Part shown: positions 1 to 36,800 of the stretch, piece after piece
Numbering within the stretch: the first letter of the stretch is position 1
Layout: every line of letters starts with the position of its first letter
From: Ostrinia nubilalis
Lineage: Eukaryota > Arthropoda > Insecta > Lepidoptera > Crambidae
Assembly (NCBI RefSeq): GCF_963855985.1
Contig: NC_087117.1
Location: 625,001 to 689,000 of the forward strand
Direction of reading: 5' to 3'
Length of the DNA: 64,000 nt
Notes under the pieces: generated by a model
Database searches by the model: none
Seen by the model: the letters and a program-made list of their open reading frames with translations, nothing else
What the model was told of the DNA's origin: nothing
Made by a program: the position numbers and the translations under genes

Positions 1-152
1 TAGGGTCTTAAAGGAATAAATAAATGAATAATTCTCACCAATAGAAGCCCTAAGCTCGCACTGCGGGCCCGCGGTGCCGGCGCGGCAGCGACATGTGTAG
101 TCTGAAGGCGAGCCTTCCTCTCTCACGCAGCGCCCGCCGCGCGCACAGGGAT
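1..152 (-). pseudogene. Echo of sli EGF7 exon (3' part plus donor)
   Basis: Positions 39-152 repeat the last 115 nt of exon 674-803, followed by a donor (GTGAGA) and at least 38 bp of the same intron. It lacks the first five codons and any nearby acceptor; upstream in frame there is a TAA. I count ten differences from the intact exon, all at third positions and all synonymous. The copy continues past the window edge. Confidence 0.9.
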
Positions 153-471
153 TATTATATTACGTCACTGTGAGAGTATATCCGTCTCTTTTACACCTTC
201 ATAGAGAGAAACTCCAGCAACATCGTCTCCCTGTCACTTACCGACACCACACGTCACTGAAAGTCGCAGTCGCAGTTCAGCAGGGCTTCTCCGAACACTG
301 TTCAGGGCAGTTTTAAGTGTATCTGTCACCGTCGCTCGTGCTAATTAATATCTTGCTTTGTGTGAGAGGGATAGCTTGCTGTCTCATCGGCTGTCAGTTT
401 TATGGGCTGTTACATGGATAAACTCTAGAACATTGCTGCCTCATCGGCCGTCAGTTTATGCATAACAGAGC

Positions 472-497
472 TCACCAATAAAAGCTTGCAGCTCACA
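472..497 (-). repeat. Short echo of EGF7 exon-donor junction
   Basis: The plus-strand string ctcaccaataaaagcttgca resembles the exon end and GTGAGC donor at 667-690. It is flanked by two short RTE-LINE scraps (367-402 and 423-458, containing catcggccgtcag). Confidence 0.5.
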
Positions 498-673
498 TTA
501 TTTGGCGAAGCCTTTAAGCAGCGTTTTGTTGCAATAACACACCGCTCGTGTGGCACTCAATGTGTTGAAATTAGCGTCAACCCTCGTGTGGTATCGCTCT
601 GTGTGTGCTGTGGCGCTGTTTTGGTTTCTAATGGAATAGGGTCCTAAAGGAATAAATACAGAAATATCCTCAC

Positions 674-803
674 CAATAGAAGCCCTGAGCTCGCACTGCG
701 GGCCCGCGGTTCCAGCGCGACAGCGGCACGTGTAGTCGGACGGCGAGCCTTCTTCTCTCACGCAGCGGCCGCCGCGCGCACAGGGATTGGGGACGCATGG
801 GTC
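674..803 (-). CDS. sli: sli window exon 32: EGF7
   Basis: A 130-nt exon, [15 protein letters not shown], then [15 protein letters not shown]. The acceptor is TTCGCAG and the donor GTGAGG, phase 1. The remaining coding sequence (the cysteine knot) would lie below position 1. Confidence 0.93.
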
Positions 804-3800
804 CTGCGAAGAGAGAAGAAAGGTTAGTATAGGTACATGACTATGATATCATGATCATCAGATTATTTAGGTCCGTTAATAAAACACCGCTCAAAATATC
901 CACCAAACCAAAGGTGCGTGGTAGGCAGGGGATATGAGGAGAGGAGTATGGAGGTAGAATGGAAGAGGATAGGAGGAGGGATATGGGTATAGGCGATAGG
1001 GGAGGCATGGGTGATAGGGGAAGGAGACATGGATAAAGAGGATTGAGGCTTTGGGCTAGGGGGGAGACAAGGAGTTAGAGATGAGGACAAGGGGTTAGGG
1101 ACGGAGGACAAAGGGTTAGAGGATGAGAGACAAGGTGATGAGAGGCAATAAGGGGTTAGGGGAAGAGACAAGGGGTTATGGGAAGAGACAAGGAGTTAGG
1201 TGGTCGAGAGACAAGGGGTTAAGGAAGAGATAAGGGGTTAGGTGGTCGAGAGACAAGGGGTTAGTGCTAGTTACCTGGCTATGCCTCTGTCCGTCATCTT
1301 GCACAGACGGCGCGGGTTGTGGAGCGGGCGGCTCGTCGTCGCCGCAGCCCGCCGCCGGCCGCTGCATGCGGACCGCGTTGCTGAAGTCCACGCGCTTTGT
1401 GGAAGACAGGGTGTAGGGACAGAGGGAAGGGGATAGGAAGAGGAGTATGGGGATAGGGGAGCAATGAGTGATAGGGGATGGAGACTTTTGGGGCATTGGT
1501 TTAGGGAAGAGACGGAGTTAAGTGGAAGAGAAAAGGGGTTAAGGGGAGATGTGCCATAGGGTTAAAGGGAGAAGGACAAGAGGTTAGGAAAGAGACAAGG
1601 GGTTAGAGGCAGACGGGATAAGGGGTTAGGGTAAGAAATAAGGTGTTCGTGGAAGAAACGAGGTTTGTGGAAGAGAGAGCCTAGTTACCTGGCTATGCCT
1701 CTGTCCATCATCTTGCACAGACGGCGCAGGTTGGGGCGCTGGCGGCTCATCATCGCCACAGCCCGCCGCCGGCCGCTGCATGCGGACCGCGTTGCTGAAG
1801 TCCACGCGCTTGTGGTTGATCCACGCTTCTTTTAGGCAGCCTGAGGTTACAAAATGATTACAGGTATTAAGTAGTCGCAAATTCGAATAGGCATGTTGAA
1901 GAAAAGAAAAAAAGGTTTAGGTGGCACTAAGCAAATAAAAAAAAATTCAAAAAATTTAAAAATAAAAAAACAAAAAAAAAAAACAAATAAAATGGCATTG
2001 AAATTATCTTCATTCAAAATAAGCCCGTGACACAGAATTTAGAGGTAATAAAGGGAAGCGCTAGGATGCGAGAAGCCAGGATTGCTCGTGGTGGAAATCC
2101 TTAGGGAAAAAAAATCTCACAAAACTCATATTTTATTTTTGCTTTTAAAAAGCACTTTTAGTTACAGGTTCCTGTATTTAACCCTACCATTGCTTCGGGA
2201 CAATAAATGGGCCAGTGTTGAGAAGAATCAGCGCAAAAAAAACTGGATCCCTTTTGTTAGCCCCTTTTTCAAGGGTTTATAATACCTACAGTATCTATAA
2301 TGTATAATTAATAAGCCAAAAAGAACAAAAAAAAAAACATAACTTTCCAAACTTGTTCAACAATATTGATCTTGACATTACTTAGACGTGTTTAGGCATT
2401 GTGATAGTTTTCTGATTTGATCACTCTTCGGTGCCTTACCTTTGAAGCTGGTAACGTTTCTGAGGTGCCAGCGCCCGAAGGCGACCTTAGCAGCGTCGTC
2501 GGGCAGCCCGCCTAGATACATTGCGTTCTCTAGTCGAAGGTACTCCTTGCTGCCTGGAAGATTAGCACTCATCAGCTGACTAGTTAGTTAGGAGTGATCC
2601 TAACTAACTACCTAATTCAAAACACATTATTATGCTCTTGTTTACAAGATTTGATTTTATCTTTGTTGAGTTCCGGTAGAATAGGATCAGTTTGACTCGT
2701 CCCATGGACATCGAAAAGGGCGACTATGAGACAAATATTTGCAATCATCAGGCGTTGCATCCCCAACACCGAATAGCATGCCTATACTATGCAGGAGCAC
2801 GAACCTCTCTAGAACCAGAGGCAAAATTAAAATTTCGTCGATTTCGAATCTTAAAGAAAGATTAAGGTGTTATATGACATGCGTACAATTAGTTGTCATC
2901 TGGGACATTAGTTCGCGAAAAAATTATGCAATTTGATCACTTAATATTATGTTAAAATTTAGTTATCTACTTAACTACATAATATTACGTGTAAATCAGC
3001 CTTTAAATCCGGCCCTGCACTGCACACAAGTCTGTAAGCCTACCTTCATTGATGATGGAGCGCGCGGGCCCGTCGTCCACTCGAAGCGTGAAGTTCTTCT
3101 TGACGGCCAACAGCTCGGCTTTATGGTAGTTGCCGTCGGACACCATCTCGAAACTATGAGAAATAAAGTTGGTCTACAATGTAATTATTTGTCGTTTTCC
3201 TCTAATAAAATAAAATGAAAGAGGTTTGAATAAACCACGGATACTCTCGGCGCACTTAAGGGACTCTTATCTAGGTTTGCACAGCTGATTTGAACTTGTC
3301 CCAATTTATTTACTGATTTTTATTTAATTTAATATCATAAAAGGTCTCTAAACTCATCACTGTTACTGTTTTATGTAATTATAAGTGAAATAACGTTTAA
3401 ATCTGTGTATTGCATTGTGTTTATGGTGCAAATTGTGCAAATACTTAGAACCGATTTGACAGTGCAATTACGAAAATATTACGTTGGATTTTGTTAACAT
3501 TGTTCTATCTTTCGAAACAGGTACCTATTTGTTTTATATTTACAACAGTAGTGCATATTTTAGAAACGAAATACTATTATTGTGACCTTATACTGTCACC
3601 CGCGTAAGAGGTTATATTTACCTACATTTTTGTCAACCTCCAATTATTGATCAATTGATCCTTTGGCATTTACATTTTAATACTTTATTATTTACCAAAA
3701 GAAACAATGCTTACACGTAAAGCCTTTGCTCGCCGGGAGGAGTCCCAACTCCAACTGGCTTTGAGAGATTTGAAGGCAGCCAAAGACTTGATTGAGCAAT

Positions 3801-9800: not shown

Positions 9801-12800
9801 GTAATTCACTTTACATGGTGGCTCACTATTTGCGTGGTAGCTTACTGTACAATGTGTCGTGGTAGCTCAACTGTATATTGTGGTAGTTCATTGGTGGCGT
9901 GTTGCTCACTAGTGACGTGGTTGCTCGCTGATGGACTGGATGCTCGCTGGTTACATGGTGGCTCACCTGTACATTGCAGTGTTGCAGCAAGTGGGATGGT
10001 TTCTCACGTCGTAGCTGACACGCAGACGGCTGTTGATCAGCTCCACGTCCGGTGGTGCTCGCGGTAGCTTACTAGATAAAGGTAGCTCACTCGTTATATA
10101 GTAGCTCACTGGTTATACGGTAGCTCATCTGTACATAGTAGAAGTGGGATGGTTCCCCACGTCATAGCTGACGCGCAGGCGGTCATTAAACAGTTCCACG
10201 CCTAAATGCTCGCGATAGCTCACTGGTTTCATGGTAGCTCACTCGTTACATAGTTGCTCACCTGTACATGGTAGAAGTGGGATGGTTTCCCACATCGTAG
10301 CTGACGCGCAGGCGGCCATTGAATAGCTCCATGCCAGGTTCTAATGGTAGCTTACTGGTATCAATAGTTCCACGCCTAAATGGTCGTGGTAGCTCACTGG
10401 TTACATGGTAGCTCACTGGTTACACGGTAGTTTACTGGTTACTTGGTAGCTCACTGATTACAAGGTAGCTCACTGGTTACAAGGTAGCTCACTGGTTACA
10501 AGGTAGCTCACCTGTACATGGTGGATGTGGGATGGTTTCCCACATCGTAGCTGACGCGCAGGCGGCCGTTGAATAGCTCCACTCCTAAATACTCGCAGTA
10601 GCTCACTAGTTACATGGCAGCTCACTGGCTACATGGTAGCTCACTGGCTACATGGTAGCTCACTGGTTACATGGTAGCTCACCTGTACATAGTAGAAGTG
10701 GGATGGTTCCCCACGTCATAGCTGACGCGCAGGCGGCCGTTGAATAGCTCAACTCCTAAATGCTCATTGTCGCCGAAGTACATCAGTACGCCGTGCTTTT
10801 GGGTCGTACTGAACACTGCAATTGAAGAAAAACATGATAGATTAGATTGACTCGATGGATTGACGACCATAAGAGAACTGTCGATGGCTCAAGAAATAAA
10901 TATAGCTTAGAGATGTTACAATTCAATCTCAATAATAGATTCTGTCATGTAATCTTACATACCGTCCAGAACAATACAAACATAATATTTATTAATATTT
11001 TCTGGAGTTAAGAGTCGCCTCTCGATCTAAATTTTTAAAATAACTTGAAATGTCGAACAACCTAAGGTGGTAATCGAACCCACGACCTTTCGCTTGCCAG
11101 GCGAATGCTCTTCCATCTGAGCTACTTAAAACACTTGAAAATTTCGAGTTCATCCAGTGTCTAAGTAGGTAGCTCAGTTGGAAGAGCAATCGCCCGGCAA
11201 GCGAAAGGTCGTGGGTTCGATTCCCGCCTTAGGCAGTTTGATTTTTTCAAATCACGCTAATATTATAAATGCGAAAGTTTGTGAGTGTATATGTTTGTTA
11301 CTTCTTCACGTCTAAACGGATGGAGCGATTTTAATATTTGGTTTGGAGGTAGCTGACACCCTGGTTTTATACATAGGCTACGTTTTACGTCACAGCTAGT
11401 TATTTATAATTTAGTTCGAACTATGGAACAGTTAGGTTTAGAACGTACTTACGTAAAGTAACGTTTGCTTGCGGCATAGTGCGCAGAGGTTCTAACTCCA
11501 CCCAGGAATCGTTGTGGCTGAACGTCAGCGACGTCAGGTACTCGCAGAAGCGGCCTAGGGAAGACAAATAAATAGATAAAAATATTATAAAGCTGAAGAG
11601 TTTGTTTGAACGCGCTGATCCCAGGAACTAATGGTCCAATTTGAAAGATTATTTTTGTGTTGGATAGCCTATTATCCAGGAACGCTTTAGGATAAAAAAA
11701 TATCATCATCCTACAGCCAACAGGGGCGGAGCAGTAAAGAAATATGTTGTTTGCAACATTTTTCCGGGAAAATGGAAATATTATTCAAACTATTTTCACG
11801 CGTACGAAGTCGCGGGCACAGCTGGTTAACCAATAATTTGAAGACTACTTCTTTATTAACCTTCAATTATTGTTAGGCCTAGAAATTGAGTTAAGGTAAG
11901 TGCCCCCTACTTCGGTATATTAAGGCTCTTACGACTTTAACATTTTATTTAAAAATAACCAAGCATGATATCAGTATGAAAGCTTTTGTATGCTAAACTT
12001 TGGTCTTTTGACAGTAAGTTAATACATAATTTATAGTTATATAGTTTGAACTTTTTTTTATATTAATTGTTCTGCGGACCTCTTGTTTGGATCCTGTTTC
12101 GTGACAAAATTTTGCTCTGTTTCTAAGTTCGTGAACTCATGTCCCCTATTTCGGGATAAGGTTTTATGCATACAGTTAGGATATTTTAATAGTGATTAAA
12201 GGTTTAATAAATTTAAAAATGATAATAAAAATTTAGAATAAAATAATTATGTGAAATTGACGATATTACTTACCTGAAATATTCATAAGAAATAATGTGA
12301 GTCTAGTACAATATTTTGATTTGTTCATTCTAACAATATGTGAAAATATTTATATAACCATTAGAAATGTAGGAGCGGGGGGGGGGGAACTTAAACCCCC
12401 CCCCCCCCCTCGTACCCATAAAATTTAGATTTGTTATTTCTAGCGATATGTGAAAATATTAATATTAACCATTAGAAATGTGGCGGGGACTTACCCCCCC
12501 CCCCTTCGTACCCATAAAATTTTGATTTGTAACCCCCCCCCCCCCTTCGTACCCATAAAATTTTGATTTGTAACCCCCCCCCCCCCTCTTCGTACCCATA
12601 AAATTTTGATTTGTAACCCCCCCCCCCCCCTTAATCCCACCTGTTTCAAGTGAGGGTAGCCCCCCCCCTCCCCCCTGAAAATAATCCCAGATACGCCAAT
12701 GACTCATAATAAAAAGTAAGTAATTAATTAATTTCTTAGGTAGGTAAGTATTAAAAACTAAAAAATATGTCGATTTCTTTGATGGTGTGTGTCATAAAAG

Positions 12801-15800
12801 TACCTAACACCATACATTTATATATCACGAACTTGGAAAAAAGTAACAATAATACGGTTCCTTGTTTCGTGATACTGATTATTCCAAATTCCCCAAGTAA
12901 AATTCATGGATTATTGTCAAAATGTGTCAATTAACTATTATCTATCCCATATACAATACAAATAAACAAAGATAAATAAAACAAATCGAAATAAAACCAA
13001 AATTATGCTGGTTCTACTTATGCTAATTTATCTTAAAATTGGTCATATATGTGAACTTCAAACTCGTGTCATATAAATTCTAGTGAACGAAACATATACC
13101 GAATTTAGGTCATGAGAAACTTAAATAAATGCATTATTTGTTTCATAACTTACATTTTAACTATCATAAATAATTATTTAAAAACCAAGCATCAAAATGT
13201 TATCCATAATATCCTTGAATCGGTAGTGTCACGAAATAGGGGACACCCGAAAAATAATATGTACGCTATTTCGTGAGTCAATTAATCGCAATTTTAAAGG
13301 AATTCTACGTTTTCATATAACTTTTTTCTAAGCCAAATCAATTGTCAAGGAACACATGAAACCACTATTACAAGTTTTATTTAAATGGACGTTCCTTCGC
13401 CTTTTTATAAGCTTAAGAAGTTGGAGCGCTAACCTTACGGTGAGAGCAACCTTTGCAAGCCGCACGGCTGTTTTTGGCTCTCTGAGAGTTTGAAGCTTCG
13501 TATTGCTCTCATTTTTGGCGCCACAATGTTGGTACTTGGTTTTTTAGATAGCTTAAATAATAGAGTTTTCGTAGTAATGAAGAATTTTTATAAATAATAT
13601 TCCATTTGCTTGTTATTTGAGCTAAAAAAAAAACTTACGAACTTACGTACTATCACGAACTAGTAGCCGTTTACCTTAGTTTTCAATTTGCTGTTATAAA
13701 CGATTTTTAGCAGCTTTGGAACCTTTTGTTAGCTTCAATTGTCCTCAATTAACTACACTGTTATTCTTCAGGTTATAAAGTTACTGTGTTATTTACTTAT
13801 CAATTTACCTGAGTAACCTGGCGCGCACTTGCACAAGTAGTCGCCAGCTAGTGAAGGCCGGTCCATTAGCATGTCATCCTAAATAGAAAAGAAAGATTAT
13901 TTTAAACATTTTTAAGTAAGACTGCTTGGAGATATGCACAGTTTCATGTCGCACAGATCTAATTCAATTTCTAAAACATTAAAATAACTTCGCCGAGGTC
14001 CAGGGGTCCAGGGGTCCATGAGTCTGGTGGCCAAGGGGACCTGAGGGCCACGATCTTGGGGGGGCCCGGGACCAGGGGTCCATAGTGTGGGGGTCCAATA
14101 CCTGTTGAGGCCGGGGCAGGTAGCACACGCCGTGTCGACAGTCGTGGTGCGCGCAGGGCGAAGTCCCGAGTCCTGCGTAGGTCTGAGAGTCCAGTATCTG
14201 GGGGTCCAGGGGTCCATTACCTGCTGTGGCCGGGGCAGGTAGCACACGCCATGTAAACAGTCGTGATGGGCGCAGGGCGAAGTCCCAAGCGCGGCGTGGG
14301 GCGCAGCCTCGTAGTACCGGCCGGGGGTTCAAGGGTCCAGGGGTCCAAGGGTCCAGGGATACAAGGGTCCAAGGGTCCAGGGGTCCATTACCTGCTGTGG
14401 TCGAGGCAGGTAGCACACGCCATGTAAACAGTCGTGGTGGGCACAGGGCGAAGTCCCAAGCGCGGCGTGGGGCGCAGCCTCGCAGTACCTCCCGGCGTAG
14501 CCCGCGGCGCACGCGCACTTGTACTCGTCGAGGCCGTCTACGCAGGTTGCGCCGTTCTAAACGAACAGAAAAATACATAATCAGCAACATCAAGGTGGAC
14601 AGACGACCTCTTAATGGTAGCAGGAAGGCGCTAGATGTATGCCGCTGTCAACCAGCCAATCTATACTAATATTATAAAGCTGAAGAGTTTGTTTGTTTAC
14701 TTGAACGCGCTAATCTCAGGAATTATCGGTACGATTTAAAAAATTATTTTACTGTTAGATAACCCATTTAATTTTATCGAGGAAGGCTGGCTATTAATAT
14801 ATAAAGAGCACACGTCAGTTCCGCATTGTTCTAAAGAGCACACGTCAGCTCTCACGCTTACCTGGCACATGTGGTTGATGCAGTCGTCGGCATTGACAAT
14901 GCAGTTCTGCCCCGAGTAGCCCTTGGGGCACGAACAAGTGTAGTGGCTGGTGTGATGTTTACAATTAAAGGACGACGCACATTTATCAACCCGGAAAGGG
15001 ATCGTAACCATATCAACTCGAGGCGGTCAATATTCTTTGTATGAACTCCTTAATGAAACACTCAATTATCCGCACCGGAACGTAAACGCCTCGCCTCGTA
15101 ATTGACAGCGCGCGAGAGGCGATGACAGCTCCACTTTACTAAACGGCCAACTAAGTTACACTTCTTACCTGGCACATGTGGTTGATGCAGTCGTCGGCAT
15201 TGACCGTGCAGTTCTGTCCCGAGTAGCCCTTGGGACACGCGCAGGTGTAGTGGCTGGTGTGGTCGCTGCACACCGCTCCGTTGGCGCACGGGTTGAACTC
15301 TGCTGTGCAGAAGGGTATCTTCTTCTCGCAGAATTCGCCTGGGGAATGAAGACTAGAATTAATATTTATGCCTTTAAAGTTCCTAAATAGAGCCTTTTTC
15401 ATCATCATCATCTCAGCCATAGGACGCCCACTGCTGAACATAGGCCTCCCCCAATGCTTTCCATGTTACCCGGTTGGTAGCGGCCTGCGTCCAGCGCCTT
15501 CCTGCTTTATGATGTCGTCGGTCCACCTTGTGGGTGGACGTCCCACGCTGCGTTTTCCGGTACGCGGCCTCCACTCCAGAACCTTGCTGCCCCATCGACC
15601 GTCAGTTCTGCGTACCCATAGAGCCTTTTTAGCTTGGGTTTTTTTTCTAATTTCTAGCCTGTTCCTCTGTGGTTGAGGATTCCGGATGAAACCTTCCACA
15701 TTCGGTCTGATCACCACTTTGCATCAGGTGAGATTGAGATGCAGGTCAAGAGCTGAGCTTCCTCATTGTGGATTTTAAAAAAGGGATGATGACCTACAGA

Positions 15801-21800: not shown

Positions 21801-24800
21801 TTGAAACAGGGACGCGCGCGATAAAGTTTTTCTGTGACAGACAAAATTCCACGCGGGCGAAGCCGCGGGCGGAAAGCTAGTACTATATACTATATACATA
21901 TAATAGACATAATATGTAATCAATGCGAACTGCTAGGGACTGGAACAGACTATTTGACACCATTCCCCTATAATTCGAAATCAAAACTATTTAAAAATGA
22001 CACATTCTGTTCTTAAAAACTTAATTAATTTTCATGTAAATAAATTAGGAGTTTTGGTTGCATTGTATTTGAAAAGGTAGTTTTGAGTTGACAAAATAGT
22101 GACGTCACTTGCTTGTACCATACAAAAACTATGGTCTCTCGTTTTGACAATTTTAAAAAGTACGTTAATTGATTGGTAGTGTCAAATAGTCTGTCAACTG
22201 CCTGCTGCTGACCTTTTTAAGACGCTTACAGGGATGTACCTTCCAAGCTTACCCCATCTCATAATAATTTATCGTTTCATAAGTACATAGGTGGTGATCT
22301 TAAACTAAAAGTCTCAACTTATGACCCTGTAAGTTGTACTTACGCAAGCATTTAAAGTCGCTCAGTTCTAAGTGATGTAAATTAGCATCCCGTAGCGTTG
22401 ATGGCGAGCCGCAAGTTGATAGCCAGGAGATGTGGCACGCGCATTCCACACTGCTCCGCTAATACACACTGCTTCTCCGCTTCGCTCTGCTAACCCAGTA
22501 CTAATGGGATAGGAGCTGGACCCCCAGTGTCTAAAAAGGGGTTTCTCCGCTTCGCTCCGTTAACGCAATTTGCTTGTCCGCTTCATTCCGCAAACTCACT
22601 CTTCGTTGCCGCTCCGTTAACCCACTGCTTCTCCGCTAACCTTCTCTGCTTCTCCGCTACTCTCCGCTAACCCACACTACTTCTCCGCTTCGCTCCTTTA
22701 ACCAAATTTTCTTGCCCAATCTACTTATCCATTACGCTCCGCTAACCAAATTTGCTTCTCCGCTTACCTGCGTCAATTTAATCTGCTTCTCCGCTTCGCT
22801 CCGTAAACTCACTTCCAATGCACTCTCATCCTCTGCTCCGCTAACATATGCCTCCGCTTCGCTCCGCTAATCTATTCCTCATCTCCGCTCCGCTAGCTTA
22901 TACTCACGCGAGCACTTAAAGTCGTTGAGCCAAGATATATGACAAGTACACTCCAGTGGGTGTGCTCTAGGCTGTCTAAGGACCTTGGTTCGACTCCCAG
23001 TGGATGCTGCCCTACAGTGTCTAAAAGAGGGGCTCGACTAGCCTGCTCCACTAACGCTCCGCTAATACACTCTGCTTCTCCGCTACGCTCCGCTCACCTT
23101 ATCTGCTTATCAGTTTCGCTCCGCTAACCCGCACTACTTCTCCGCTTCGCTCCGCTAGCCTAATTATCCGCTTCGCTCCGCTATCCCACACTATTTCTCC
23201 GCTTCGCTCCGCTAGTCTATTTCTCCGCTTCGCTCCGCTAGTCTATTTCCCCGCTTCGCTCCGCTAGCCTACTTCTCAGCTTCGCTCCGCTAGTCTATTT
23301 CTCAGCTTCGCTCCGCTAGTCTATTTCTCCGCTTCGCTCCGCTAGCCTACTTCTCCGTTTCGCTCCGCTAGCCTACTTCTCCGCTTCACTCCGCTAGTCT
23401 TTTTCTCCGCTTCGCTCCGCGAACCCACTCCACATCTCCGCTCCGCTAACATACTTTGCTCCTTTACCATGTTTACCAGCTCCATTCCGTTTAACTAAGT
23501 TATACTCACGCGAGCACTTAAAGTCGCTCAGTTCCAAGTGATGTAAATTAGCGTCCCGTAGCGTTGACGGCGCTCCGCATGTGGCTGTCGGAGCCAGGCG
23601 ACGTGACCGCAGCCAGGTCGACAACCAGGAGATGTGACAAGTACACTCCAATGGGTTGTGCTCTAGGTTCCTAAAAAAGAAAGAAATAAAACTTTATATA
23701 AACATACAAAAAACTAGAAACACAATAGAAAAACTTGTTAGTTATGTTGCCATGTAAAAATATTATCATCATCGAGTCAGTTAGGGCTGAGCTAAACACA
23801 ATGCAAAAGTGGCGCACTTACCTATTCTAAGTTGAAAGGTTATAAATTATAACTTTTTGTAATGATTGATTCTATTATAATGATATTCAAAAATTACCTC
23901 AACTAAGGGGGAGTTGAATTTCTTTGGCTTGGCCGTACGACCCATAATACTAGCTACCACTACCCAGCATTTATGAAGCAACACTGGCCGTACACTTTTA
24001 CTGTACCGTACACTGGTTTACCCAATGTCTAAGTAGCTGACCGTTGGTCAGCGGCAAGCGAAGGGTTAATAAATATAGGTTTGATTCCCTTCTATTAAAA
24101 AATGAATCTAGGTAGGTATACAATTATTCATTCTAGATTGATCATCAACTTACAGAGTAGACAGCATGGTCAGATGATCGAACGCCCCCGGTGTGATGCA
24201 TTTGATTTTGTTTTCTCCCAATGATCTGAAATTATAAATAATTAAATTCTATAAGGTTATAATAATCAGCATCAAATTATTCTAAAGATGTGAACACACA
24301 AGTATGTAATCATTGCAAACATCATCATCATCATTTCAGCCATAAGACGTCCACTGCTGAACATAGGCCTCCTCCAATGATTTCCATGTTGCCCGGTTGG
24401 TAGCGGCCTGCATCCAGCGCCTTCCTGCTACCTTTATGGTGTCGTCGGTCCACCTTGTGGGTGGACGTCCCACGCTGCGTTTTCCGGTACGCGGCCTCCA
24501 CTCCAGAACCTTGCTGCCCCATCGGCCGTCAGGTCTGCGTACTATGTGCTCTGCCCATTGCCACTTCAGGTTGCTAATCCTTCGGGATATGTCAGCGACT
24601 TTACTTAGTTCGTTTACGCATCTCTTCATTTCTGATTCGATCTCCTGAAGAAACACCGAGCATAGCCCTTTCCATAGCACGACTACATAATACTCACAGC
24701 ACTGTCAAGCTGTGCAGCCCGAAGAACATCTTGTCAGTGACAGTCTGCAGCAGGTTGCCATCAAGCAGCAGTTCCTGTATGTTGGCAGCGCCGTCGAACG

Positions 24801-27800
24801 CGTTGTCTTCGATTACTGTTATGCCTGTATAGTGAAATAGCGTCAGTAGGTGCGTGCTCAAAGAATGGTGGATCAGGAGGGTAGTTGAAGAAAAAAGAGA
24901 CGATGTGTGTACTAGGGCTTGTTCCCACGGAGACCTAAGGGGACTATTCCCACCTCTCGTTCCCACCGCTGCAACTCCTGTGTAGCCTAAAATACGTCTC
25001 GTCTCCGCTTTGGGGGAAAACGGCCTTTAAGAGGGTAGTTGAACAGAAAATATTTTCAATATACTAATGTAGTTACTACAACTGTTAAACTCAAATAAAT
25101 ATCCACCAAAAACAAAGTTTTTTAGAAGTTGTTTAGTAGGTACCTAATTATAATTTAAAGAGTCGTGAATAGATGAAGACATAAATATTGAAAATCTGAA
25201 GTCTAGTCATCGTATAGCCTAGGCGCAGACCCCCAACTTTTAGTTGGCCGATAGTTGGGCCCGATTCTGATTTGTATGAAGAATCGGCTGATAACAAATC
25301 AGATTAATGTGCGCACTTTCATACATGCCCATACTAATTAACTGTCAGACTAAAAATCGGTGGACTGCGCCTTGGCTAAACGAGAGTTAGTTTTGCGTAG
25401 GGTATGTTAAAGTCCTTACCGTTATTCCTGAAGTCCAGTTTAGTGAGGTCCGGCAGCCTGCCGAACAGGCCGTCCGACTTGATCTGCCCTAAAGCGTTGT
25501 CGGACATCAGTCTGTAACAAGTTTACATGTAGGTACACATAGTATAGCGTTTGTCGTGTAAAAAGAAATGCATCAGAAGTTCTATTTAACCAACTTGTAA
25601 GCATCAAGTAACTTTGGAAGCCTACATTATGTTGTCAAAAGATTAGAAATGCCTCTTACCTTTTTTATTAACATTGACTTTCATAAGTGTCACAATAGTG
25701 ACTCATAATTTAAACTAGTGTCCAGTATTTGAACAAGCAACTCAGAATTTGAACAAGTAACTCAGAATTTGAACAAGTAACTCAGAATTTGAACAAGTAA
25801 CTCAGCATTTGAACCAGTAACTCAGCATTTGAACCAGTAACTTAGTATTTCAACAAGAACTTAAAACTTGAACCAGTGATTACATAAATAAATTTTATTA
25901 AATTTTAAATTGGAACAAATAAATTGGAATTTGAACCAGTTATTCAGAATTTGAACCAACATTGGTTCAAATTGCCATTGCAATGGCTTGGAAATTAAAC
26001 CAGTGACTTAAGAAGCAAGTACTTACAGGGCATCAGTGTTAAGCGGCAGGTCCTTAGGCACTTCGCTAAGCGACGCGCGCGCGCACGTGACGCTGACGGA
26101 GCGCGCGCCGTACTCGCACGCGCACGCTGCCGGGCACGCGCCTGACACGCCACACGCGTTGGCGGCTTCCTCGCCCGCTGGCAGAGAGAAAGAGAAAGAA
26201 ACGTTTATTACAATGAACAATACTCAGAAAAGGACAATAAAGGTACAATCCTGACGAACTAACTGCGCACCTGGGCCCCGATTACGCTAATTTTTAACGT
26301 CTCCAATACAGACGCGCTTCTTCGATTTCTTCGATTTCTTCGATTCTGCGATACGGATTGGTCAAAACAGCTGAATCCGTATCGCAGAATCAAAAGTGCG
26401 TCAGTATTGGAGACGTCAAAAATTAGCGTAATCGGGGTCCTGGCGGCCGTGACGTTACTTCGACGCTCTGAAACGGACGGGGCGAAGTCGAGTGGTCTGC
26501 GGGTGAGTGCGAGGGAGAGTCGCATTATAGCGAGGTGCGTAGTTGGCTCGATGTGATTGGAATCACACAAAAAACAAAAAAGGTATCCACATACATAAAA
26601 AACATGGCCCAACGATGCTGAAACGTCAAGTGGCTAAAATCAGAACTAACGACCCAGCATTGATAGTAGCGCCCTCCTGTAAATATCATAATTACATGAG
26701 AAACTTCTGAACTGTCCTATCCATGACATTGACAGTGGGGCGCCACCGTTAATACCGGATCGCTGGTTCCGATTTTTACCATGTTGGAAACCATAAAGTT
26801 GAACGATGGTAGCGCCCCCCTGTCATTGAGTTTGGTGGGACAGTTTAGCGTGGGTCATCTTATAATGATATTAGCGCCTTCTTGTAAATGTCATACATGT
26901 CTGGGACACTGAAGTGTTGTAGGGTCGGGTGGTCGACAGTGGACCAGAGGTACTGAATGACCCAGGCAAATAACTTGGAAACGCGACGTTGCCAATTGGT
27001 GCACATCACAGTAAGCAAGCCTCTGTTAGAAATATCGCTCCCTACAGCTAGTATACAAGTGGCTGTTTTGTGGACCCTGTCAATTGTCAATCGAATATAT
27101 TAGCTAAGTGACGCGCGCGCACGTGACGCTGACGGAGCGCGCGCCGTACTCGCACGCGCACGCCGCCGGGCACGCGCCCGACACGCCGCATGCGTTGGCG
27201 GCCTCCTCGCCCGCTGGTAGAAAGAAAGAGATGTTATTGTAGTGGACATAGGGCTTGCTATCCCGTGGGACATCATACAAAGATGAGGGATCCCGCGCGG
27301 AATCGAGGAATCCTGCATATTATCCCGCGGGATTGAATGTAACCCCTAAGTGGACATCACTCGTAAAACGACGAAAAGGTACCCTTAAACACAGAAGACA
27401 TATAGCCCAACAATACTGAAACGTCAAGTAGCAAGAATTGGAACAAATAACCCCAAGGTCATGCCCCCCCCCTGGAAGTGGAAATTTGACTTGCCCCCGA
27501 GGCCAGAAGCTAGGTCCAGTCATAACCGATATTCCATAGGAGCGGCCCTAGGACCGACCCCTGTCGAACACCGCACTCTACTGGCCTTCGGCCCCACCCG
27601 TCAGCCGTCGGAAAGATCTATCTATCAGATAGATATTCTATCTGCTAGGTAGGCCCGGATAATCTTTTGTAAGTATTGAGGGACCCTATGGTGCTTCAGA
27701 GCCTCTTGTATGCAACTGTGGGGCTTGTGGCTGTTTTGTGGACTGGACACTGTCAATTGTCAATCGAATATTAGCTAAGCGCCGCGCGCACGTGACGCTG

Positions 27801-30800
27801 ACGGGCACGCGCCCGACACGCCGCACGCGTTGGCGGCCTCCTCGCCCGCTGGCAGAGAGAAAGAGACAGAAACATTTATTACTATTGACAACACTCAGGA
27901 AACGACAAAATGGTACAATCCGGTCGAATTAACTGCGCACCTGGGCCCCGATTACGCTAATTTTTAACGTCTCCAATACAGACGCGCTTCTTCGATTTCT
28001 TCGATTCTGCGATACGGATTGGTCAAAACAGCTGAATCCGTATCCAAAACAGCTGTATCCGTGTGATTGGAATCACTCAAAAAATGAAAAAAGGTATCCA
28101 CATACATATAAGACATAGCCCAACGATGCTGAAACGTCAAGTGGCTAAAATCAGAACTAACGACCCAGCATTGATAGTAGCGCCCTCCTGTAAATGTCAT
28201 AATTACATGAGAAACTTCTGAACTGTCCTATCCATGACATTGACAGTGGGGCGCCACCGTTAATACCGGATCGCTGGTTCCGATTTTTAGCATGTTGGAA
28301 ACCATAAAGTTGAACGATGGTAGCGCCCCCCTGTCATTGAGTTTGGTGGGACAGTTCAGCGTGGGTCATCTTATAATGATAGTAGCGCCTTCTTGTAAAT
28401 GTCATACATGACACATCCGGGACACTGAAGTGTTGTAAGGTCGGGTGGTTGACAGTGGACCAGAGGTATTGAATGAACCAGGCAAATAACTTGGAAACGC
28501 GGTAGGCAAGCCTCTGAACGAAATATCTCTCCCTACAGTTAGTATAAAAGTGGCTATTTTGTTGACCCTGTCTATTGTCAATCGAATACATTTGCCAAGA
28601 GGCGCGCGCGCGTATCGCTGAAGATGTAAGTAGGGTAAATTTTTCAAACGTGATTTTTTTATCAATATAGCTTCGCGCGGTTTTCACGTACTTCCTACTA
28701 ACTACCTTTCTGAAATCTGCGATCCACCTTGTGGGTGGATATTCCACTTGTCGGTACGTGGCTTCCATTCCTTACTGCCCCATCGGTCGTCAGTCCTACA
28801 TGTCCTGCCCGTTGCCTCTTCAGCTCTCTTATTCGTCGCTTCTTAAGTCAGTCGCAGGAGAACGGGCTGCGGCCGCCGGTCAGCGGAGAGAGAGAGGAGG
28901 GAGAGAGGAGAGAGGGGGGAGAGAGAGGGAGAGAGAGGGAGAGAGAGAGAAGAGAGAGAGGGAGAGGAGGGAGAGAGAGAGGAGAGAGAGATAGTGAGGA
29001 GGGAGAGAGAGAAGGGAGAGAGAGAGGAGGGAGAGAGAGGAGGGAGAGAGGAGGGAGAGAGGAGAGAGAGGGAGAGAGAAAGGAGAGAGAGGGAGGTGGT
29101 AAGAGAGAGAGAAAGAAAAGTGGGAGAGAGAAAGAGAGAGGAGAGGGGAGAGAAGAGAGAGAGAGGAGGGAGAGAGGGAGAGAGGGAGAGAGAAAGCAGA
29201 GAGGGAGAGAGATAAGAGAGAGAGAGAAAGAAGAGTGGGAGAGAGAAAGAGAGAGGAGAGGGGAGAGAAGAGAGAGAGAGGAGGGAAGGAGAGGAGGGAG
29301 GGAGAGGGAGAGAGAAAGGAGAGAGAAAAAAGAGCGAGGGAGCGAGAGAGATAAAGAAGCCAGTCAGTCGTACTCACGCTTGCACTTGAAGTGCTCCTCC
29401 CTCAGCGCGTCTATCCGCTTGCGACTCATTCTCTTGGGCGCGTCGCACTTGGCGCCCGACGTCTCGGTCGGGTTCTTGCGCAAGTCCGCGGCCAGCCAGC
29501 GCAGTGCGCAGTCGCAGGAGGACGGCGCGGCCGCCGGGCAGCGGAGAGAGAGAGAGAGGAGGGAGAGAGGGAGAGAGAGGAGAGAGAGAGGGAGAGAGGA
29601 GGGAGAGAGGAGGGAGAGAGAGAGAGGAGAGGGAAATGAGAGAGAGAGAGGAGGGATAGAGGAGGAAGTGAGAGAGAAACAGGAGGGAGAGAGAAAGAAA
29701 CAGGAGGGAGAGAGAGAGAGAGAGAAACAGGAGGGAGAGAGAGAGAGAGAAACAGGAGGGAGAGAGTGAGAGAGAAACAGGAGAGAGAAACAGGAGGGAG
29801 AGAGTGGAGGGAGAGAGGAGAGAGTGAGAGAGGAGGAGAGAGAGAGCTGAGGAAGGGAGAGGAGGAAGAGAGAGATAGGAGGGAGAGAGAGACATAAACA
29901 AGTCAGTCAGTCGTACTCACGCGTGCACTTGAAGTGCTCCTCCCTCAGCGCGTCTATCCGCTTGCGACTCATTCTCTTGGGCGCGTCGCACTTGGCGCCC
30001 GACGTCTCGAGCGGGTGCTTGCGCAAGTACGCGGCCAGCCAGCGCAGTGCGCAGTCGCAGGAGGACGGCGCGGCCGCCGGCAGCGGAGAGAGAGAGAGAG
30101 GAGAGAGGGAGGAGGGAGAAAGGAGAGAAGGAGAGAGAGAGAGGAGGGAGAGAGAGAGGAGGGGAGAGAGAGAGGGAGAGAGAAAGGAGAGAGAGAGAGA
30201 TAGAGAAAGGAGAGATAGAGGAGGGAGAGAGGAAGAGAGAAAGAAGAGAGGGAGAGAGAGAGAGAGAAACAGGAGGGAGAGAGAGAGAGACAGAAACAGG
30301 AGGGATAGAGTGAGAGAGAGAAACAGGAGGGAGAGAGTGAGAGAGAAACAGGAGGGAGAGAGAGAGAAACAGGAGGGATAGAGTGAGAGAGAAACAGGAG
30401 GGAGAGAGAGAGAGAGAGAAAGAAACAGGAGGGAGAGAGTGGAGGGAGAGAGAGAGAGAGAGAAAAGGGAGGAAGAGAGAAAGAAACAGGAGGGAGATAG
30501 AGAGAGAAACAGAAGGGAGAGAGAGAGACAAAGAAGCCAGTCAGTCGTACTCACGCCTGCACTTGAAGTGCTCCTCCCTCAGCGCGTCTATCCGCTTGCG
30601 ACTCATTCTCTTGGGCGCGTCGCACTTGGCGCCCGACGTCTCGAGCGGGTTCTTGCGCAAGTACGCGGCCAGCCAGCGCAGTGCGCAGTCGCAGTAGGAC
30701 GGCGCGGCCGCCGGGCAGCGGAGAGAGAGAGAGGGAGAGAGAGAGAGGAGGGAGAGAGAGGAGGGAGAGAGAGGAGGGAGAGAGAGAGAGAGGAGAGAGA

Positions 30801-30825
30801 GAAACAGGAAGCAGAGAGTGGAGGA

Positions 30826-30862
<37 letters not shown>

Positions 30863-33800
30863 GAGAGAGAGAGGGAGAGAGAGGGGAGAGAGAGAGGAAG
30901 AAAGAGGAGGGAGAGAGAGAGAGAGAGGAGAGAGAAAGGAGAGGGAGAGAGAAGTGACAGAGGGAGAGAGAAAGGAGGGAGAGAGAGCTAGAGGGAGAGA
31001 GAAAGGAGAGAGAGTTGGAAGAGAAAGGAGGAAGAGATAGAGAGAGGAAGAAGAGAGAGGAGGGAGAGAGGAGAGAGAGAGAGAGAAATAGGAGGGAGAG
31101 AGAGAGAGAGAGAAATAGGAGGGAGAGAGAGAGAGAAATAGGAGGGAGTGAGAGAGTGAGGAGAAAGGAGAGTGAGTGGGGAGAGAGGAGAGAGAGAGGA
31201 GAGAGAGAGGAGGGAGAGAGAGAGAGAGAGGAGGGAGAGGAGGGAGAGAGAGAGAGAGAAATAGGAGGGAGAGAGAGAGAGAGAGAAATAGGAGGGAGAG
31301 AGAGACAGAGAAACCGGAGGGAGAGAGAGAGAGAGAAACAGGAGGGAGAGAGAGAGAGAGAGAGAAACAGGAGGGAGAGAGTGAGAGAGAAACAGGAGGG
31401 AGAGAGTGAGAGAGAAACAGGAGGGAGAGAGTGAGAGAGAAACAGGAGGAAGAGAGAGAGAGAGAGAGAAACAGGGGGAAGAGAGAGAGAGAGAGAGAAA
31501 CAGGAGGGAGAGAGAGAGAAACAGGGGGAAGAGAGAGAGAGAGAGAGAAACAGGAGGGAGAGAGAGAGAAACAGGAGGGAGAGAGAGAGAGACAGAAACA
31601 GGAGGGAGAGAGAGAGAGACACAGGAGGAAGAGAGAGAGAGGGAGAAAGTGGAGGGAGAGAGAGAGAGAGGAGAGAGAGGGGGAGAGAGAGACAAAGAAG
31701 CCAGTCAGTCGTACTCACGCGTGCACTTGAAGTGCTCCTCCCTCAGCGCGTCTATCCGCTTGCGACTCATTCTCTTGGGCGCGTCGCACTTGGCGCCCGA
31801 CGTCTCGATCGGGTGCTTGCGCAAGTACGCGGCCAGCCAGCGCAGTGCGCAGTCGCAGGAGAACGGCGCGGCCGCCGGGCAGCGGAGAGAGAGAGAGAGG
31901 GAGAGAGGTGGGAGAGGGAGAGAGGGGAGGGAGAGAGAGGAGGGAGAGAAAGGTGGGAGAGAGAGAGAGAGAGAGAGAAAGGAGAGAGAGGAGGGAGAGA
32001 GGGGAGGGAGAGAGGAGGGAGAGAGAGATAAAGAAGTCAGTCAGTCGTACTCACGCTTGCACTTGAAGTGCTCCTCCCTCAGCGCGTCTATCCGCTTGCG
32101 ACTCATTCTCTTGGGCGCGTCGCACTTGGCGCCCGACGTCTCGAGCGGGTTCTTGCGCAAGTACGCGGCCAGCCAGCGCAGAGAGATGATGATAATGACT
32201 GAAGTACACTAGGGGACAAATGTCTCGCAACACGTATCTGTAACATGTCGAGCGAAGTCCAGCGGTTTCGCTTCGCATGTGGCAACAAAGCGACTTGGTC
32301 AGTAGCGACGTCAGGCGATTCGCAAAACTTCGCCTGACATATCTTATTGACATTGCCAGTCGATATCATGACACCTGTCACATGACCTGTCGAGCAAAGT
32401 CCAGTAACGTCACACGATTTCATTTCATGACGCTGGCGACACGTGTCGCACTACTTTAGTCCCTGTCTAATTTAAAGTAAGTACTCACGTTTGCAAAGGC
32501 TCATTCAATAGCGAGCCATAGCCTAAGACGGAGCCGCAGACGAAAATTCAAGTTAGCTCCGTTTCATTGGGCTCTGGTGGTCATAGGCTGGTTTTAGTGT
32601 CACGCGGACTGTCAGTGCGGATCGCTCCGCACAGCCGATCTGTATGAACTGCTAGGGAGCGGAGCGGTTCCTCCGGACCGCATTACTCTAAAACGCTCCC
32701 TAGAAGTTCATACAGATTGGCCGTGCGGAGCGGGTCCGCATTAAAACCAGCCATAATGGTTTGGTGATGTCTTTCTCCCAATCGATCTGTGAAAAAAGGT
32801 ACTCACGTTTGCACTTAAAGTTCTCTTCCCTCAGCGCGTCGATACGTTTCCTACTCATTCTCTTCGGCGCGTCGCACTTGGCGCCCGACGTCTCGATCGG
32901 ATTCTTGCGTAAGTACGCTGCTAACCAGCGCAGTGAACAGTCGCAGGAGAACGGGTTGCGGCCTAGGTGGCTGGGGAAAATAGAAAGAATAATTAAATAA
33001 TGAGAAGATTCTTTATTTTGGAAACTTGGAGCTCTTTTCGCTCTCCCTCGCTCACTGGTCGATCTATGTAGCGCAGCAGTGTTCTTAGTTCGAGTTTTAC
33101 CAAACTGCGTAAAAAAATAATATTACAGCGTCTCTAGCAGATACTTTCAAAAACTGAAAACTTCATAATTTTTTGGACGCACTCGCTAGCGATGACGTTC
33201 ATGCAAACTCGCACTAACTTAATTTTGTTTTGATTATTGCAATGTAAGCGCGTACCAAATCTTCCCCTTTGTTCTAATCTATGAATTAAAAACAAATTCG
33301 GATCGTGGAAAATTAATGCGAGAAAAAATAACAGACATGACAGGCGAGAAAATTAACAAAAGTGTAACGAAATTGTTGGATGTAAAAGAATATCATGGTA
33401 CCTATTCGTGGTGGCCAGTGTCGCGCGACCAAGGAGTTATGAGGGCCAATTATTGTTATTTGTAGATTTAAACTAGGGATGTGATGGATATGTAGTTTCG
33501 GTTATGGATATTGGAATAATATTATACCGGTTTCGGTTACGGTTACGGATATTTTTTTATTTCGGCTATGGTTACGAATATCTGTGCTAAGTATAGAACG
33601 CAAATTCTAATAGTTGTCCAACACAGTTCTTGCCTTACGAATAGAATGGGCACAGAATACCTTTTTCTAAACCTTCTTTTGGTCTCACAAAAAGCTTTTT
33701 TTTGCAAAATGCAATAATTAAATCAGCGTAGGGACTTGCTTGACTCTGCCTACATCCGAAACTATCCGAAACCTTTGAATCGGTTATGGTTACGAATTTT

Positions 33801-36800
33801 TATTTTATTTCGGATATCCGAAACTTTCGGTTACGGTTACGGATATCCATAACATCCCTGATTTAAACACCGTCGTTAAGGAAATTATAAACTCAACTTA
33901 TGTAATGACCTCAAAATAGTATTGTACTAACTAATTTCTTACTTCCTAAAGTTCAAAAATTTCTACTTACAGCGTTTGTATCCCAGTCAAAGCATCAAAA
34001 GTGCCATTTGATAGAGACCTGATGTTATTATCGTACAGCGATCTGAAAATAAATATTAAATGATAGCTAATTTAAAGAAAATATCATTTTATTAAAGGCA
34101 TGAATGACGTTAAAGTACTCACAATAATTTCAGATTCTGCAAGTCTCTAAACGTGTCTTTCCTGACGCACGTTATTTCGTTTGAATTCAGCAATCTGTAA
34201 AAAAGTTGTTGTTATAATAAAAAAAAATATAGTGGGCAGATACATAAAGAACTGTCAAAATTTTAGACTCACAGTAGTTGTAGAGACGCCAAACCGTGAA
34301 ATATTCCAGATGGAAGTTCCTTGATTTTATTCCCGTACAGGACCCTGAAAAATATACATTTTCAGTTAATAAACTAATTCGTTTAATGTAGTAACCTACA
34401 CTAGTTCTGCCTTTGCAAATTCAATCAACAACGGAAAAAAAGATGTCAAAAAGGTCACTCACACAGTAATCATCTTGACATGTTACTGGCAATTAAAAAT
34501 AAATAAAAACAAAAATAATAAAATAAATATAGAAGGACTTACAAAGAGCTCAGATGAGTTAACCCAGTAAACGCGTCAGCAGCGAGCTTCGTGATCTTAT
34601 TGTTAGACAGATCTATGCGCGTGACCCGCTTCACAGCTGCGAACGCTCCTGTCCCCACTTCTGTTATCTCGTTCTGTTCGAGGCGGCTGGAAAAGGATAG
34701 ACATATGTTAGGAATGAGAATCAAAGGTAATTTAGTTTTTATATCATTTGTTTTAGTAAATATAAAGAAGGACCTAGAATCGACCCCTGCAGGAGCCTTA
34801 TTTGTTGTAAGAGAAATATAGTTCTGAGACAGATCATTTTAATTTTATTATGAGGTATTACAGAACATGGGTTAATAATTAACGAATTAACAAGGCAATT
34901 CAGGCGTAAGGTCGAAAATCGGTTCATAATTAACACTATCAAAAGCATTAAGGAAATCATTAATACAGAAAATACCCAAAGAGTGCAAAAGTTGCGAAAA
35001 ATAATCTAAGTATCTACTTACGAAGTGGTGGTAGGGCAAGCAATATTTAGGACGTGTATAAAAATGACCTTAATACTAATTCGTATTCGTTTCAGCCAAA
35101 TGACGTCTACTGCTGGACAAAGGCCTCCCCCAAGGATTTCCCTAACGACACACACATCTTCCGTCTCGTAGTCACCACTCGAGAACTTTTCTGCCCCAGC
35201 GGCCATCAGCTTTACGTCCCGCCCACTGTCACTTGATTTAAGCAATTCTGAGGGCTATGTCGGTCACTTTGGTTTTTCTGCGGATCTCCTCATTTCTGAT
35301 TCGATTAGGTACATAAGACTATTAAAGAATTTGACTGTTTTTAAAGCTTACATCTCAGTGGCTCTATGAGGGATGGTGGTGGGCAGTTCTGACAGCAGCT
35401 TCTCTCTGCAATCCACGGTCCCGTCCAACGAGCAGCGGCAAGGCGGCGGACAGCGAGGCTCGGCGGAGCACTCGCCTGAGGATATAGCGTTGGTTGGACC
35501 TGGAATAAAAATATTATTCAGGTTAGAGAAACTTCATCACTGTCATTTTCAGTATAATTTTATCCACATGACGTTTATGGCTGAACAAAAGCCTCGCCAA
35601 ACGATTTCAAGATTAAAACGGGACTATTTCCACCTCTCGTTCCTACCGATGCAACTCCTGTGTAGCCAGGATCTACAACTTGACCATCAATAAAAACCCA
35701 ACCAGTGAAGGTCAAGTTTGTCCCGGGGGAAAGTTAAACTGTCATTGAATCCGCAACGAAATTAATCAGAAGAACATACGAGGAGTTCGAATTTATGGAT
35801 CGATTTCTCTCCAGTGTAAACTGAGGTATGAACGTACCACTGCAGACCAGCTCGTGTGCTTCCAAGTCAGTGAGCAGGGCACCTTTCAGCGCTGCTGGCG
35901 CTTGACACCTGTTGATAAAGAAATAGTTGTACTGTAAGCTCATAATATTTCATATTCTTTTGAAAGTTATGCAGCAGATGCTTCGTTTGTTTGTTTTCAG
36001 CTAAATGACGTTCACTGCTGGACGCCAAGCTTCCTCAATGACTTCCATAACGACCGGTCAATCCGGCGACCTTCACCAGATCGTCGGTCCACCTAGTGGG
36101 TGGCCTGCCCACACTACGTCTTAATGCCCGTGGTCGCCACTCGAGAACTTTTCTGCCTCAACGACCATCAGCTCTGCGCACTATGTAGTGGTCTCTGGCC
36201 TCTGGAGATGGTTACTACAAAATACTACTACTCGTACTAGTGTCACAGAGGGTGTGCAGCAAGCAGGAGTTTCAGCCAAAAGACGTCCACTGCTGGACAA
36301 AGAACTTCTAAGGATTTCCACAAGGACTCTTCCTTAGCTGCCCCAATGCCATCAGGGGTTACACAAGTTATCTTGTACGAGCTAGAACTCACCTGGCACC
36401 AACTCCCGGAATAGCGGCCTGCATCCAGCGTCAAACTTTTAGAGGTTGTCGGTCCACCTTGTGGGTGGACGTCCTACTGCGTATCAGTATGTGGCCTCCA
36501 CTGCAGAACCTTGATGCCTCACCTGCGTACCGTACTATGTGCCCTGCAGCAGATGCTTACCTGGCACCAACTCCCGGAATCCCAGCGGCCCTCACAGCAG
36601 TAGACAGTCTCGCCACCCTACAGTCGCAGACCACCGGGTTATCCGTGAGCCTCAGGGTGTGAAGCCTGGTAATGGCGGCCGGCTCCAAGGCCAGGTACGT
36701 CAGGTTGTTGTTATTGAGGGTGCTGTGGACAACATTATAAGGCCATAAGTCATGGAATGTGTTAATGAATATCATTTCTGTGCTGTGGACAAAGGAACTA

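Follow-up and report, generated by a model that had tools for sequence, protein, structure and literature searches.

In Ostrinia nubilalis (Lepidoptera, Crambidae), many exons of the gene slit are echoed in the following intron by truncated copies of their own 3' ends, and most of the differences between exon and copy are synonymous. We analyzed a 64,000-nucleotide stretch of the slit chromosome (C30:625001-689000, from NC_087117.1 of assembly GCF_963855985.1), which we call the window. The "echo" is two things: tandem duplication that is filtered by splicing, which is of an ordinary kind, and the way in which many copies have changed, which is unusual. We give a probability of roughly 50% to an explanation that covers both: random local duplication, loss of the copies that carry an acceptor, and then exchange of exon tails with the active exon.

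Slit is encoded on the minus strand of the window, as found with tblastn, using Slit sequences as queries. We set the exon borders manually at splice sites and mapped 32 exons, which are numbered as in an earlier reading of this DNA (the original prediction). All 32 have AG/GT borders, and when joined they give a reading frame without a stop. The joined protein differs from the Ostrinia furnacalis protein slit at 2 of 1318 residues, and the top match in PDB for its D2 part is SLIT2 (2v9s, E 4.7e-67).

When we compared each exon, with 40 flanking bases, to the window by blast, we found same-strand partial copies at exons 5, 12, 13, 17, 22, 24, 25, 28, 31, and 32 (E ≤4e-5 for the best copy). These are all of the exons that had been said to have partial copies beside them, so the echo observation itself is confirmed. 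At every one of these exons but 13, the copies consist of the 3' part of the exon and its donor, placed downstream, as had been predicted. Exon 18 has short echoes only, which contain 11-12 bases of the exon (E 0.002 and 0.09). The downstream copies start within the exon and do not have their own acceptor. Exon 13 had been flagged as the exception, and it is: its two upstream copies have the acceptor and the 5' part, without the donor. Counting the other genes described below, there are one to eight copies per exon, and they diverge from their source by about 1-25%. Slit's copies carry adjoining intron sequence of the same locus. They are adjacent to the source and in direct orientation, and their units have the same order, which is the geometry of tandem duplication. 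Frameshifts, stops, or internal deletions disrupt some of the copies (at exons 13 and 17, and copies 2, 4, and 8 of the CCDC186 exon described below).

The coordinates of the exons and copies are as follows, all on the minus strand of the window. Exon 5 (36561..36722) has a copy of its last 30 nucleotides plus the donor at 36388..36419 (E 4e-5). Exon 12, with 164 nucleotides, encodes the LRRCT of D2 (32807..32970), and its five copies, each with the donor, are at 32047..32184 (copy 1, GTGAGTAC), 31711..31866 (copy 2), 30547..30702 (copy 3), 29913..30068 (copy 4), and 29370..29525 (copy 5). These align to almost the entire exon, with gaps, and the AG of the acceptor is lost. They sit among several GA/CT-rich tandem arrays, which the copies break up (28886..32028, no strand assigned). 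Exon 13 is at 26027..26177, and its upstream copies are at 27100..27231 and 27779..27885. Exon 17, which encodes the LRRCT of D3 (23510..23670), has a copy with an internal deletion and the donor (copy 1, 22884..22971) and a copy of its 3' part with the donor (copy 2, 22330..22434). Between exon 17 and its copies, at 22612-23456, there are minisatellites with units of about 20-31 base pairs and a higher-order period of 78 base pairs. Exon 18 is at 21292..21421, with its donor inside the next repeat unit (GTGAGTAACC), and the short echo with an E of 0.002 (exon end plus donor) is at 21085..21136. Exon 22 (16738..16951) has copy 1 at 16395..16598 and copy 2, with the last 49 nucleotides, at 16173..16265, both with the donor. 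Exon 24 (15169..15338) has a copy with the donor at 14857..14954, and exon 25 (14392..14556) has two, at 14202..14324 and 14065..14199. Exon 28 (laminin G, 10683..10815) has four copies, at 10472..10594, 10222..10351, 10089..10211, and 9937..10046; in the third, the GT of the donor is changed to AT, and the other three have the donor. At exon 28, as at exon 18, the donor is part of a minisatellite unit. Exon 31 (1689..1840) has a copy with the donor at 1267..1402. For exon 32 (674..803), copy 1 and its donor are at 1..153, and more downstream copies lie past the edge of the window. Also past the edge, exon 33 (at -2660) has an upstream copy with the acceptor and the 5' part (window coordinates -2469 to -2565, 75% identity), which is the second acceptor-type case besides exon 13. 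Three exons (5, 25, and 28) have their first copy exactly 171 base pairs downstream, which may be chance.

A minisatellite had been predicted between each exon and its copies. According to Tandem Repeats Finder, this is correct for the first copy at 5 of 9 exons (17, 22, 25, 28, and 31, where the array is short). There is none at exons 5, 24, or 32, and the arrays at exon 12 separate the copies from each other rather than the exon from copy 1.

The tail-plus-donor rule might arise because donors are targeted or because other copies are lost. Local direct duplications (E 1e-4, spacing 60-4000) occupy 32.6% of positions 1-37600 of the window, and we shifted them circularly 10,000 times within this region. 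Donor junctions lie inside the duplications about as often as expected by chance (9 of 29, with 9.0 expected). Acceptor junctions do so less often than the 9.0 expected, with 1 of 29 inside (P = 0.0011 for so low a count; P = 0.0004 for the difference between donors and acceptors). Across the four genes with echoes (slit and the three genes discussed below), 13 exons are of the donor type and 2 are of the acceptor type (p = 0.004), or 12 and 2 without the short case of exon 18 (p = 0.006). The original prediction had proposed a process that acts at exon-donor junctions, but donors are duplicated at the chance rate and acceptors are what is missing, so we rejected a donor-targeted mechanism. 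Because duplications disregard donors, and the ones that would carry acceptors are missing, tandem duplication plus the loss of stray acceptors yields the rule. A duplication from an exon into the next intron would be tolerated because the exon stays whole and the true donor is made first. A duplication from the previous intron into the exon would be disfavored because the spare acceptor comes ahead of the true acceptor. The missing acceptor copies are most simply explained by selection on splicing, which probably removes them, though a general constraint on the 3' ends of introns would give the same deficit.

The differences between exons and copies are mostly synonymous. Counting a single copy for each exon, we found 79 synonymous and 15 nonsynonymous differences in 11 exon families. 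If the exon were constrained and the copy were neutral, about 40% of the differences should be synonymous (p = 1.8e-18). Across all 32 aligned pieces, there are 240 synonymous and 58 nonsynonymous differences. For these counts we trimmed 9 bases beside each breakpoint and entered copy 1 of exon 17 as two pieces; the 79:15 count leaves out the short echoes (exon 18 and small fragments at exons 12, 22, 25, 28, and 32) as well as NSE4 and RhoGAP. Several copies have no amino acid changes at all: the copy of exon 31 (8 synonymous differences), copy 1 of exon 32 (10), copy 7 of CCDC186 (11), and the copy of NSE4 (1, counted by hand). Two copies of exon 32 that are truncated at the same start are separated by six changes in 115 bases, all of them silent. 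Other copies run contrary to the pattern, with 11:8 synonymous to nonsynonymous differences for copy 2 of exon 25 and 5:4 for copy 4 of exon 28. Neutral pseudo-exons should have differences spread at random over codon positions; the pooled data do not, and we rejected plain neutral decay for them.

Synonymous variants are also shared among copies more often. Excluding exon 17 and the families with a single copy, 46 of 85 synonymous variants are present in at least two copies, as compared to 7 of 36 nonsynonymous variants (p = 6e-4). Without exon 12, the corresponding figures are 33 of 72 and 2 of 28 (p = 2e-4). More sharing of silent variants is expected if variants spread via the active exon.

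The echoes had been taken to suggest a locus-specific process. That interpretation is not supported, since we found such echoes in three other genes. We scanned 13 stretches of 10 kb (4 from C30 and 9 from larger chromosomes), and another 7 stretches that flank the window, for local duplicates whose differences have a period of three. This led to CCDC186 at C30:4.0 Mb, where eight copies of the 3' part and donor of one exon lie in tandem downstream of it (C30:4000001-4010000, 3205-4670, plus strand). The name is from an O. furnacalis entry that covers 59% of the exon at 98% identity. In six more stretches of C30, we found an NSE4 exon (Pfam Nse4_C, E 1.3e-12) with one tail-plus-donor copy downstream; the exon's tail is at 3164-3014 and the copy is at 2605-2455 of C30:4020001-4030000 (minus strand). 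And among the nine stretches of larger chromosomes, a RhoGAP exon (E 4.2e-12) on C1, which is 19.7 Mb, has a downstream tail-plus-donor copy (exon ending at 5247 and copy ending at 5114 of C1:2000001-2010000, minus strand). We rejected the idea that echoes are specific to slit, and because of the case on C1, we also rejected the idea that they are confined to the small chromosome. With echoes in four genes, one of them on C1, they are a feature of the genome. The RhoGAP case makes the finding more general, although its copy says nothing about selection.

NSE4 and RhoGAP were found by reading open reading frames of at least 65 residues that overlap local duplicates, by eye, which is not a systematic survey. 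We read 7 loci on C30 and then the nine loci on larger chromosomes (L020-L028) along with L039 and L040. Of the peptides compared to Pfam, 1 of the 7 from the C30 set had a match (NSE4), and the 1 from the second set matched RhoGAP. The period-3 scan missed both genes because their copies differ too little. In the scan, 4 of 154 blocks passed in positions 1-40000 of the window, all at echoed exons, and 0 of 3 passed in positions 36001-64000; 3 of 143 passed in the 13 + 7 stretches (L009-L028), all in CCDC186, and 1 of 525 in the six additional stretches of C30 (L036-L041). These counts are uncorrected for the scanning of sub-intervals. The last block is in L038 (C30:1000001-1010000), where 5384 bases, or over half of the stretch, are in local direct duplications.

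Local duplications are also denser at slit, which supports the claim that there are more copies than chance would give. At the same thresholds, local direct duplications account for 1138-4729 bases per 10 kb in positions 1-40000 of the window, 522-1883 in the 4 other stretches of C30, and 0-1278 in the 9 stretches of larger chromosomes. The mean is 1669 bases per 10 kb for 10 stretches of C30 and 285 for the 9 stretches of larger chromosomes (p = 0.002, or p = 0.005 without the two C30 stretches that were chosen beside CCDC186), where the stretches were placed at round coordinates, not drawn at random, and two sets of thresholds were pooled (E 1e-6 with spacing ≥30, and E 1e-5 with spacing ≥60). 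In the genome, which comprises 495 Mb in 52 contigs, C30 is a contig of 7.5 Mb, and the other contigs whose lengths we saw are 8.0-27.8 Mb. Two studies of Lepidoptera describe higher recombination and repeat content on small chromosomes and propose non-allelic recombination as a driver on small, repeat-rich ones (PMC12308830, PMC8476138).

Several observations suggest that copies exchange sequence with the active exon. In the tail core that is common to all copies of CCDC186, 27 of 55 informative pairs of sites show all four combinations (47 of 105 if we include the sites adjacent to breakpoints). The active exon 28 is a mosaic, as its first half is like copy 1 and its second half is like copy 3. 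In NSE4, the tail of the exon and the copy are identical at 150 of 151 positions, as compared to 122 of 139 for the adjoining intron (p = 3e-5), and in RhoGAP the figures are 59 of 61 and 44 of 53 (p = 0.02). Mosaics and exon tails that are more alike than the adjoining intron suggest exchange with the active exon, which would keep amino acid changes out of the copies; if so, then selection on the protein reaches intronic fragments. Unequal exchange had also been proposed originally, and the tandem units and mosaic copies fit it. Overall, the original interpretation is partly supported.

We used simulations of 100 genomes, with one run per setting, to see how exchange affects the ratio of nonsynonymous to synonymous differences (N:S). 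Without exchange, N:S was 2.2-2.7. If copies were refreshed one way, it was 0.76-2.4, and with two-way exchange it was 0.29-3.0, with low values only if exchange was very frequent and selection was strong. In the run with 0.29, silent diversity in the active exon was 0.10, as compared to 0.02-0.03 without exchange. These models suggest that exchange is feasible but do not prove it.

Some results weigh against this explanation. The observed N:S (0.19-0.24) is lower than in any of the simulations, and in the closest run (0.29), synonymous divergence was 0.11, less than our hand estimate from the data of roughly 0.2-0.35 per synonymous site. With weaker selection, two-way exchange gave an N:S of 0.88-3.0, which is not better than one-way refreshing. 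Copy 2 of exon 22 is the reverse of NSE4, with a diverged exon part and a nearly identical intron part. The copy of RhoGAP has 1 silent and 1 amino acid change (by hand). Copies 2-5 of exon 12 share 15 silent changes from the exon, yet among themselves all 7 of 7 variable sites change amino acids: some copies are neutral at present, and the common ancestor of the exon 12 copies was not. Four combinations at two sites can also arise by repeated mutation. Exchange was read off one haplotype, and the silent changes are unpolarized. Also, given the echo on a large chromosome, high recombination is not needed for copies to arise.

Another explanation for the silent differences is that they were present on arrival, because the copies recently came from a source that was diverged but functional, which might be another slit gene, a copy linked to the W, or a haplotype that had diverged deeply. 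This would account for the few amino acid changes without any exchange. By hand reckoning, silent divergence is fairly even from one exon family to the next, and within the exon 32 units the intron has diverged as well, both of which fit such a source. On the other hand, the copies contain the neighboring intron of this very locus; several diverged sources would have to be assumed for each of exon 28, exon 32, and CCDC186; and the event would have to recur in several genes. In a search with LRR_8, for which 150 of 688 candidates were scored, 14 of 15 LRR loci matched slit at 22-41% identity and one did not match at all; none of the 15 is slit-like. A diverged source of this kind seems unlikely to us. 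We are somewhat more doubtful that the copies, which have donors but no acceptors, are used as alternative first exons, so that their protein sequence is conserved directly. The impetus for this idea is CCDC186: in O. furnacalis, its isoform X2 (an NCBI model) seems to begin with an echo copy (MEMFLEEHAKQLTGELRAK...) that is joined to the next exon. In O. nubilalis, copies 6 and 7 share an isoform X2-like start with an in-frame start codon, and they have 18 synonymous and 0 nonsynonymous differences. First-exon use is possible at CCDC186 if that model is correct, but gene models in repeats can be misaligned. In slit, just 5 of 18 copies tested have an in-frame ATG upstream; the other 13 have none before the nearest upstream stop (ATGs within the copies were not counted), so we disfavor translation of the copies as the general reason. 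There is a stop immediately before the copies of exon 32, and the tail contains no methionine; even so, these copies have 0 nonsynonymous differences.

It is improbable that the copies are dead fragments of tandem duplicates, that is, neutral leftovers within introns. The tandem geometry, the disrupted copies (exons 13 and 17; copies 2, 4, and 8 of CCDC186), and the exon 12 copies, which differ from one another at amino acid-changing sites only, would all be natural for dead fragments, and individual copies may fit this description. But the pooled ratio of 79:15 contradicts neutrality of the copies since their split from the exon, which predicts about 40% synonymous differences. An assembly artifact, with haplotypes or reads joined in tandem, is very improbable. 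Repeat-rich arrays are hard to assemble, and the copies adjoin their source. However, sources and copies differ by about 1-25%, there are one to eight copies, and six versions of an exon are impossible from two haplotypes. Furthermore, the O. furnacalis protein model seems to hold an echo of CCDC186, which is one indirect answer to the question of whether relatives have echoes, and the slit chromosome is a single 7.5 Mb contig.

We return to duplication, acceptor loss, and exchange, which would work together as follows. Local tandem duplications would strike the genome regardless of exon borders, and densely on the slit chromosome. Those that place a stray acceptor upstream of an exon would mostly be lost, probably because they spoil splicing, while the 3' end of an exon and its donor, when placed downstream, would be tolerated, as the true donor is transcribed first. 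The remaining set would be tail-plus-donor copies. Many of these might swap sequence with the active exon and with one another, by unequal crossing-over and gene conversion. When a tail is in the active position, protein-altering changes would be removed and silent changes could spread, so that the intronic tails would be a pool that is kept coding-competent through exchange. A more tentative proposal is that these untranslated fragments of exons, within introns, are under purifying selection at the protein level because they continually trade with the active exon.

If this is true, then introns store silent cassettes of exon ends, which raise silent diversity in the active exons but leave the protein unchanged. 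If the exchange is real, then selection on proteins extends into introns, a local reservoir feeds the silent diversity of some exons, and any test in which silent sites serve as a neutral clock would give misleading results for these exons. The lack of acceptor copies could also be viewed as a natural experiment on the choice of splice sites, in which a spare downstream donor is tolerated and a spare upstream acceptor is not.

The window contains other repeats as well. At 3936-8184, in the intron that separates exon 28 from exon 29 and on the strand opposite to slit (plus), there are long open frames that are reverse transcriptase-like and that presumably represent a non-LTR (long terminal repeat) retrotransposon. 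A dispersed repeat has three copies that are about 96% identical (17431-17688, 20632-20892, and 41012-41260), one of which adjoins exon 21.

When one of the exon 12 copies was used as the query in a protein search, there was no match at E 0.001. In a search of the literature on partial exon duplication, selection on or conversion of exon fragments, and slit in Ostrinia, with most subscription journals outside its coverage, we did not find this phenomenon, but it resembles several known systems. Multigene families can evolve in concert by unequal crossing-over and gene conversion. As in such families, the echoes include mosaic copies, shared variants, and tracts that are more alike than their flanks; recombination among copies is apparent in CCDC186 (27/55) and in the mosaic of exon 28, and tracts are homogenized relative to flanks in NSE4 and RhoGAP, with copy 2 of exon 22 reversed. 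Unlike those families, the members here are fragments of single exons, and one alone is in a reading frame. Mutually exclusive exons that arise by tandem exon duplication, as described in PMC6071210, also involve similar copies of exon and intron beside the source and within one gene. Duplicated exons of that kind should have their own acceptor and donor, but slit's downstream copies have no acceptor and the exon 13 copies have no donor; the downstream copies are truncated, vary in length, and cannot replace the exon in frame. Small lepidopteran chromosomes with many repeats are another parallel, but what is accessible of PMC12308830 and PMC8476138 concerns transposable elements, diversity, and functional turnover (the word "exon" is absent from the main text of PMC12308830), while here we see echoes of exons, one of them on a large chromosome. 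Finally, as with minisatellites or VNTRs (variable number tandem repeats), there are tandem arrays beside many of the copies, and at exons 18 and 28 the donor is inside the unit. Here, though, the units take in coding sequence and their differences follow the codon, which would not be seen in a plain minisatellite.

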